NCBI RefSeq assembly: GCF_017696175.1
Contig: NZ_JAAORE010000003.1
Location: 124,001-188,000, forward strand
DNA from: Prochlorococcus marinus XMU1404
Lineage (GTDB): Bacteria > Cyanobacteriota > Cyanobacteriia > PCC-6307 > Cyanobiaceae
Reading direction: 5' to 3'
DNA: 64,000 nt
Of this stretch, positions 42,353-43,954 are shown in pieces (within the stretch, counting starts at the first letter, position 1; each line of letters begins with the position of its first letter). Both the position numbers and the translations under genes were made by a program. The notes under the pieces are model-generated. The model searched no databases and was not told the DNA's origin. It saw only the letters and a list, made by a program, of their open reading frames with translations.

Positions 42353-42970
42353 CTAAATTTTGCGCCAAACTGCTAAAAGCTTACCTTGAAATATAACTTC
42401 ATCCAAATTTAATTCAATAGGTTCATAATTTGGATTGGCTGCCTCTAAAAATATTTTTGCTCCTCTTTTGAAAAAGTACTTCAATGTTGTACCGGAGCCT
42501 GGAACCATTGCGCTCACAATTGTTCCATTTATTAGAGAATTAGAATCTCTTATAGGTTCCATCAAAACCATATCTCCATCAGCTATACATGCATCAATCA
42601 TTGAATCACCATTAACTGTGAGTGCAAAAACATCCTTTTTCTTAAATACATCTGTAATGTCAAGATTTTCATAGACATCTGAAAAAGTTTCAATTAATCC
42701 GCCTGCGGCTACCGATCCTTTAATAGGAATTCCATCAATAATTTCATCAACCAATTTAAGAGTTCTCGCTTTACCTTCCTGCCAAGAAATAAAGCCCTTA
42801 TCTTGAAGATGTTTAAGCCTACTTTGAATAGGCGCTGGTGACTTTAAACCCATTGCGTTCATCATTTGCCTTATTGAAGGGCTATGTTGAAAATCTCTCA
42901 CATAATCTCTTATCCACTGATAAAGCTCGTTTTGGGCTTCAGTGAGATTATCGCCTGAATAGTTAACCAA
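42353..42970 (-). CDS. lexA: LexA repressor (SOS regulator)
   Basis: SOS repressor and self-cleaving serine protease. The TTG at 42968-42970 gives 205 residues, close to the family's ~200; the in-frame ATG at 43019-43021 would add 17 residues absent from other LexA proteins and contains two LexA-box-like sites. The winged-helix domain has HSPSIRQMMNAMGLKSPAP. The cleavage site is seen as VAAGG (Ala-Gly), the catalytic Ser in NGDSMIDACIADGD, and the Lys in TTLKYFF. All residues for RecA-stimulated self-cleavage are therefore present, unlike some cyanobacterial LexA proteins. It lies just downstream of argF on the same strand. Confidence 0.92.
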   Translation of the reverse strand: MVNYSGDNLTEAQNELYQWIRDYVRDFQHSPSIRQMMNAMGLKSPAPIQSRLKHLQDKGFISWQEGKARTLKLVDEIIDGIPIKGSVAAGGLIETFSDVYENLDITDVFKKKDVFALTVNGDSMIDACIADGDMVLMEPIRDSNSLINGTIVSAMVPGSGTTLKYFFKRGAKIFLEAANPNYEPIELNLDEVIFQGKLLAVWRKI

Positions 42971-42984
42971 GGAACATATGTACT
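42971..42984 (-). promoter_or_regulatory. LexA-box-like site (proximal)
   Basis: On the minus strand the sequence is AGTACA-TA-TGTTCC, against the cyanobacterial consensus AGTACA-N2-TGTACT (two mismatches, both in the right half-site). It ends directly before the TTG start of lexA. Binding here would block transcription through or from this point and give autoregulation. It is only meaningful if the TTG start is used. Confidence 0.5.
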
Positions 42985-42986
42985 CT

Positions 42987-43000
42987 AATACATTTGTACC
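42987..43000 (-). promoter_or_regulatory. LexA-box-like site (distal)
   Basis: On the minus strand the sequence is GGTACA-AA-TGTATT, two mismatches from AGTACA-N2-TGTACT, with a perfect TACA/TGTA core. It lies 16 bp (centre to centre) from the proximal site. The two sites together make a tandem operator between argF and lexA. They lie within the coding part of the longest lexA frame. Confidence 0.5.
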
Positions 43001-43024
43001 TTTTAAATCGCCTTTTTGCAAGTT

Positions 43025-43954
43025 CTAGGAAAGAAGTGATGCTAAAAGGGCTTGTTGAACATGAAGTCTATTTTCTGCTTGTTCGAAAATTCGACTATTT
43101 TTACTTTCGAACACTTCATTAGTTATTTCTTTGTCTCGATATGCTGGAAGACAATGTAAAACAATTGCATCTTTTTTTGCTTTCTTCAATAAATCATTAT
43201 TAATATTAAATCCATCAAAATCTATATCTTTTTTTTCTTTTTTATTTTCTTCACCCATTGAGGACCAAACGTCTGTGTACAAAACATTTGACCCAACTAC
43301 AGCCACGTGAGGATCATTTATGATTTTCAAAAAATCTTTTTTATTACTTATCTCTAACGCTTTTTTTATAATTGCACTATTTGGTTCATATCCCTTTGGA
43401 CAAGAAATTCTCACTTCCACATCAAGTAATGCTCCACATAAAATAAGTGAATTTGCAACATTATTGCCATCGCCTATAAATGTTAAAACAACTTTACTAA
43501 AATCATTAAATTCCTCTTTAATTGTCATAAAATCAGCCAAAGCTTGGCATGGATGCTCTAAATCAGTGAGTGCATTTATAACAGGCTTGGAAGACCACCG
43601 CGCATATTCTTCCAAATCTGATTGTTTAAAAGTTCTTATTGCAAGTGCATCACAATATCTGCTTAGAACTCGAGCTGTATCTCTTATAGGCTCGCCCCTG
43701 CCTATCTGTGAAGTAGTTGGATTTAAATCAATAGTGGTCCCGCCAAGTCGTGACATTGCCACTTGAAAGCTAACTCTCGTACGGGTAGAAGATTTATCAA
43801 AAATGAGTCCCAAAACTTTGTTTTTAAGTTGAATATTTATATCTTTATTTTTAAAATTTTGAGCAAGATTTAGTAAATTTATAACTTCTTCATTTGAAAT
43901 ATCCAAGGATGATAAAAAATTTGAACTTACAATCTTATTTGGTTTTAGCATCAT
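43025..43954 (-). CDS. argF: Ornithine carbamoyltransferase
   Basis: Makes citrulline from ornithine and carbamoyl phosphate in arginine synthesis. The 309-residue protein is of normal length. The carbamoyl-phosphate loop is STRTRVSFQVAMSRLGG near residue 56, then HPCQALADFMTI near 137 and the ornithine loop/catalytic Cys in LHCLPAYRDKEI near 268. The carbamoyltransferase signature is intact. It starts 25 bp after the ftsH stop and ends 3-54 bp before lexA depending on the lexA start, so some read-through from argF into lexA is likely. Confidence 0.96.
   Translation of the reverse strand: MMLKPNKIVSSNFLSSLDISNEEVINLLNLAQNFKNKDINIQLKNKVLGLIFDKSSTRTRVSFQVAMSRLGGTTIDLNPTTSQIGRGEPIRDTARVLSRYCDALAIRTFKQSDLEEYARWSSKPVINALTDLEHPCQALADFMTIKEEFNDFSKVVLTFIGDGNNVANSLILCGALLDVEVRISCPKGYEPNSAIIKKALEISNKKDFLKIINDPHVAVVGSNVLYTDVWSSMGEENKKEKKDIDFDGFNINNDLLKKAKKDAIVLHCLPAYRDKEITNEVFESKNSRIFEQAENRLHVQQALLASLLS

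Follow-up and report, generated by a model that had tools for sequence, protein, structure and literature searches.

In the window, by which we mean the whole stretch of 64,000 nucleotides that was analysed, lexA is preceded by two LexA-box-like sites, and their conservation among relatives makes it highly probable that they form a double LexA operator within the lexA promoter, with predicted binding of LexA and feedback on lexA itself. From the same comparison, the cell very probably regulates lexA by feedback. The sequence-only reading from which the analysis started had located the two sites 16 bp apart and directly upstream of a TTG codon at 42970, with coordinates that proved exact (Table 1). 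Its proposal that lexA is autoregulated by a double operator just after argF is strengthened by the finding that both boxes are conserved as DNA at a fixed spacing, and LexA is predicted to bind them. The result provides a concrete candidate feedback promoter for lexA of an abundant ocean phototroph, in a group whose published regulon table often omits lexA as its own target.

Organisation of the lexA locus

The neighbours of lexA are argF and ftsH. On the minus strand, the argF stop codon TAG (43027-43025) is followed after 3 bases by the hexamer TTGCAA and, another 17 bases downstream, by TACAAA, which is contained in box 1. Two bases separate box 1 from box 2, and box 2 is immediately followed by the TTG codon. 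The protein read from this codon scored 181 bits against TIGR00498, for which the cut-off is 110.95, with the match covering residues 8-205. In an alignment with the solved LexA 7b5g (202 aa), the self-cleavage motifs GSVAAGG, VNGDSMID and TTLKYF fall opposite VAAG, VSGMSMKD and TVKRL, while in a pairwise alignment with 3k2z the catalytic Lys is shifted by one residue. An Ala-Gly bond, a Ser and a Lys are described as the cleavage site and catalytic residues of LexA (PMC2921402).

Table 1. Features of the lexA upstream region and adjacent genes, in coordinates of the window
Feature	Position	Strand	Evidence
Probable -35 hexamer TTGCAA	43016..43021	-	TTG 21 bp before box 1; TTGC columns conserved
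Probable -10 hexamer TACAAA, inside box 1, 17-bp spacer	42993..42998	-	Spacing and conservation; weak match, final T missing
LexA box 1, GGTACAAATGTATT	42987..43000	-	Pattern in 169/171 aligned family upstream regions; published for MED4 lexA
Predicted transcription start, A or G, between the boxes	42985..42986	-	Deduced from the position of the -10 hexamer
LexA box 2, AGTACATATGTTCC, fills the predicted leader	42971..42984	-	Centre distance 16 in 86/106 genus-group and 25/50 other-genera rows
Most likely lexA start codon, TTG	42968..42970	-	Start codon at +30 to +34 in 102/106 rows
lexA coding sequence, 205 aa	42353..42970	-	TIGR00498 181 bits; LexA_DNA_bind and Peptidase_S24
argF, ornithine carbamoyltransferase	43025..43954	-	NF001986 406 bits; TIGR00658 378 bits

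Sample of relatives

A lexA match was obtained in 78 of 101 genomes of the window's genus, and the best 30 of the 78 were taken as loci. To these we added 80 named lexA loci (79 titled Prochlorococcus, one Synechococcaceae), which overlap with the genus-genome set, and from the family genomes, 193 of 200 of which gave a match, 30 loci (two already in the set) and 40 short stretches. The 40 short stretches were hand-picked to spread over genera and 12 further loci were the best-scoring ones, so that the 50 rows from other genera are not a random sample. The anchor motif was present in 171 of the 178 loci and box 1 in 169, which gave 156 distinct rows: 50 from other genera and 106 that we call the genus group, consisting of genomes coded as the window's genus together with the 80 named loci, the genus code of which was not checked. 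Among the seven loci dropped for want of the anchor motif, six have both box 1 and a TTGC at -21, and the remaining one is truncated at its 5' end; judged by eye, box 2 is present in two of these six and degraded in four.

Probable promoter elements upstream of and inside box 1

Of the 169 rows, 155 have a TTG at a distance of exactly 21 bp ahead of box 1; counted over distinct rows, this TTG is present in 105 of 106 from the genus group and 37 of 50 from other genera. Within the genus group, the columns of TTGC hold 1.85-2.0 bits, compared to 0.2-1.0 bits for columns -30 to -22 and -17 to -5. In the other genera, the hexamer at this position reads TTGCCA in 15 of 50 rows, TTGCAA in 8, TTGCGA in 5 and TGGACA in 5 (33/50 together). 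The -35 consensus of sigma-70 promoters is TTGACA, to which these hexamers are close. Because of the fixed spacing of the TTG, the conservation of TTGC and the sigma-70-like hexamers in other genera, TTG 43021 is best read, and most likely functions, as part of a -35 element TTGCAA and not as a start codon. The combination TTGCAA-N17-TACAAA agrees with TTGACA/TATAAT at four of six positions in each hexamer and has a spacer within the usual 16-18 bp; a scan with the sigma-70 consensus returned no promoter in the lexA upstream region, and TACAAA lacks the usual final T. An alternative -10 element at TATTAG was dropped, as its distance to the conserved TTGC would be 25 bp.

Start codon of lexA

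If translation began at TTG 43021, LexA would have 17 extra residues and both boxes would be coding sequence. We consider this very improbable. The long frame (42353-43021) is indeed uninterrupted here, and 10 of the 106 genus-group rows, this genome included, have it open, although one of the 10 (L098) does not have the TTG. In the other 96 rows, the TTG at -21 could not serve as a start for LexA: in 51 it is in frame but a stop intervenes, in 41 the frames differ and the lexA frame contains stops as well, and in 4 the frames differ without such stops. Moreover, the LexA family models begin only at residue 8 of the protein read from TTG 42970. An N-terminal extension as coding sequence was rejected on the 96 non-coding rows. 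The sequence-only reading had mistaken the upstream codon at 43021 for an ATG, and was right that the 17 codons from 43021 to 42971 have no counterpart in LexA.

Its placement of the true start at TTG 42970 is likewise supported. When the start codon was picked by the rule ATG before GTG before TTG, 102 of the 106 rows had it between +30 and +34, counted from the first base of box 1, which corresponds to TTG 42970 or up to 4 nt after it. By the same rule, the 106 genus-group rows start with ATG (79), GTG (19) or, most rarely, TTG (8). Exactly eight residues precede the LT motif in 89 of the 106 rows, as they do in the window, and the only other in-frame start candidate near TTG 42970 is TTG 43021. 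A Shine-Dalgarno-like sequence before the start was seen in 1 of 106 rows. In the other genera, 37 of the 50 rows have their start codon between +34 and +43. Reading TTG 42970 as the start would correct the LexA start in this genome, and the predicted leader would have a length of about 15 nt, nearly all of which is box 2.

Match of the boxes to the consensus and expectation by chance

As the sequence-only reading had stated for the cyanobacterial SOS box, each of the two boxes differs at two positions from AGTACWNWTGTACT (Li, Xu and Su, 2010). Compared with RGTACNNNDGTWCB, the cyanobacterial LexA box consensus of Mazon et al. as quoted in the same paper (PMC3091678), box 1 has one mismatch and box 2 none. 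As a single box, RGTACNNNDGTWYB matched 28 times in the 1.67-Mb genome versus 39 times for the backwards control and was thus not in excess, and GTACNNNTGTNC with one mismatch gave 17 matches in the window against 11.3 expected. A single box is not remarkable by consensus alone; the pair is. Box 1 and box 2 form the only pair in the window with at most one mismatch each and starts 12-30 bp apart, and 30 mononucleotide-shuffled windows yielded one pair by the same criterion. When up to two mismatches were allowed, the tandem pattern was found at one place in the whole genome, upstream of lexA, and the control gave 0.

Since the RNA can pair box with box, the palindromes might instead represent a hairpin, a terminator or another leader structure after argF. 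The predicted folding was no better than that of shuffled sequences (z -0.48, with 59 of 200 shuffles at least as good), and a scan for terminator-like sites after argF found none; we give this explanation hardly any credence compared to a double operator.

The four half-sites of the two boxes recur every 8 bp over positions 42971-43000 of the window, so that a LexA dimer might also occupy a weak middle register, in which at least 7 of 10 bases agree in 80 of 106 genus-group rows. This register, at centre distance 8 (80/106 in the genus group, 3/50 in other genera), was not counted as a third box because it arises where the facing half-sites of boxes 1 and 2 overlap.

Conservation and loss of the two boxes

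Conservation among relatives, on which the sequence-only reading had made its proposal depend, was found for both boxes. Box 1 is present in 169 of 171 aligned loci (the exceptions being L175 and L192), its columns being in part fixed by the search pattern that located them. Box 2 was scored against GTACANNTGTAC, which has 10 fixed bases, with a threshold of 7 and as a function of the centre distance from box 1. At a distance of 16, 86 of 106 genus-group rows reached the threshold (mean 0.47 and maximum 3 in 2000 mononucleotide shuffles), as did 25 of 50 rows from other genera (shuffle mean 0.16, maximum 2 in 2000). With distance 8 set apart for its half-site overlap, no other distance from 9 to 45 gave more than 2/106 and 1/50 scoring rows. 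The tandem pattern without mismatch occurred in 59 of 101 genus genomes (23 of the 30 near-complete ones), once per genome and with 0 in the backwards control, and all 59 places are just upstream of lexA when coordinates are compared by eye.

For box 2, 20 of the 106 genus-group rows and 25 of the 50 rows from other genera stayed below 7; in the latter it was degraded in 14 of 20 rows with an upstream piece of at least 55% G+C and in 11 of the remaining 30. Natural promoters with an intact and a degraded box 2 are exemplified by L011 (score 8) and L045 (score 3), respectively. On a tree of 118 rows with outgroups, the state of box 2 requires 21 changes, against 21.3 for shuffled labels; 18 changes fall within the genus group, and well-supported branches force only 7, the tree having been made by a quick method with long-branch warnings and being poorly resolved. 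Recurrent loss of box 2 is supported by this distribution, whereas the number of losses is unsure. Judged from the aligned upstream regions, box 1 is rarely lost and box 2 is repeatedly lost.

The scattered degradation of box 2 over the tree would also be expected if only box 1 were a LexA operator; box 2 would then look conserved because transcription or translation constrains the leader beside the start codon, and its likeness to a box would be incidental. In E. coli, too, a lexA promoter with one operator did not differ in behaviour from its matched double-operator counterpart (PMC7440846). The spacing in other genera argues against this explanation: although their start codon mostly lies further downstream, box 2 keeps its distance of 16 bp in half of the rows. 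We therefore regard a single operator as improbable, though less so than the other alternatives, and favor two operators.

LexA boxes at other genes of the same genome

Boxes are also present before recA (AGTACGGATGTACT) and before an S24 gene (AGTACATTTATACT) that we read as umuD because a UmuC-like frame follows. Perfect matches to GTACANNTGTAYT number six in the genome: one is at lexA, and the other five each have their first base 19-44 nt ahead of the start of a small open frame. Three of these five frames are DUF1651 genes, two by Pfam and the third only by a genome search with PF07864, which identified six DUF1651 genes in this genome. DUF1651 was matched in 33 genomes, 30 of which contributed a single locus each. 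A box scoring at least 9/10 is present within 200 bp upstream in 12 of these 30 loci, compared to one among 354 control windows taken at the same loci and to 0.7% of shuffles. Of 20 additional, hand-picked DUF1651 loci, which include the six of this genome, 10 also carry such a box. DUF1651 genes of MED4 and Synechococcus increase in expression during phage infection (PMC5490813); the main text of that report mentions neither LexA nor SOS. The upstream boxes suggest SOS control of this phage-response family, a link that is unreported in the main-text literature searched.

The DUF1651 loci lie outside the window, in the same genome (L274, L276 and L277) and in relatives (L242-L271). Upstream of the DUF1651 gene of L274, box-like sites at C2:58113 and C2:58130 are 17 bp apart and form a looser tandem than that of lexA, a pair that recurs in L279 and L281, and two strong boxes 14 bp apart precede the DUF1651 gene of L249. 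In the window's genome, strong LexA boxes are also found at L114 (C1:30233), where a small open frame of 76 aa begins 19 nt from the first base of the box, and at L121 (C1:325679), where one of 68 aa begins at 22 nt; no Pfam match was obtained for the leading 70 residues of the former or all 68 residues of the latter. The L114 box is also 27 nt before a divergent frame of 292 aa, and another box-like site is located 20 bp upstream of the L121 box.

Discussion

In the model that we propose, RNA polymerase would use TTGCAA and TACAAA, and transcription would begin near 42986-42985, so that the -10 element would fall under box 1 and the leader of about 15 nt up to TTG 42970 under box 2. A LexA dimer on box 1 would be expected to block polymerase binding, and another dimer bound at box 2, with its centre 16 bp further downstream, may reinforce the block. 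As 16 bp correspond to approximately one and a half helical turns, the two dimers would sit on different sides of the DNA. After DNA damage, self-cleavage of LexA would empty the operator and permit transcription of lexA, closing a feedback loop. Mitomycin C was reported to raise lexA, recA and umuC in Synechococcus WH8102 and CC9311 (PMC3744912), and for lexA this is what autoregulation predicts. In Prochlorococcus PCC9511, lexA expression tracks the light-dark cycle and is not raised further by UV (PMC2921402), a pattern that neither proves nor excludes autoregulation.

More tentatively, and with somewhat less than even confidence, we suggest that the double operator of the picocyanobacterial lexA promoter may be ancient and of separate origin from the one in E. 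coli. In this reading, four LexA half-sites follow one another at 8-bp intervals from the -10 element as far as the start codon and span the whole leader, with box 1 kept almost invariant and box 2 lost many times in natural populations. If this is true, wild relatives represent ready-made single- and double-operator versions of one circuit, in which the role of the second operator is directly testable.

Box 1 itself is already published. It is listed letter for letter for lexA of MED4 (PMM1262), CC9605 and CC9902 in Table 1 of Li, Xu and Su (2010; PMC3091678), and PMC2921402 mentions, with reference to Kielbasa et al., that lexA is preceded by a LexA motif in Prochlorococcus genomes. Table 1 of Li 2010 gives one box per lexA and contains neither box 2 nor the 16-bp spacing nor the promoter frame. 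Table 3 of the same paper does not list lexA as a LexA target in AS9601, MED4, MIT9215, MIT9301, MIT9312 or MIT9515, whereas box 1 is near-universal among our rows of the window's genus. The MED4 lexA box is placed at -57 in Li 2010 compared to -30 relative to TTG 42970 here. In the main-text literature searched, no second box at lexA was described for cyanobacteria. Box 2 and its spacing thus appear to be new, as we found no report of them.

The centres of the lexA operators in E. coli are about 21 bp apart, compared to 16 bp here, and the box sequence of the window is of the Gram-positive/cyanobacterial type, unlike that of E. coli. Two operators are established for E. coli lexA (PMC9210283), and operators I and II likewise lie near the transcription start and mediate negative feedback. 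Several LexA operators in one promoter are similarly described for colicin and recN promoters, although not in this case for lexA itself (PMC7440846). In the same study, the matched single-operator promoter was indistinguishable from the double one in E. coli, and the role of the double configuration was called unclear. In this lineage, unlike in E. coli, the downstream box is often lost, and strains with putative single and double operators occurring side by side would constitute a natural test of the second lexA operator.
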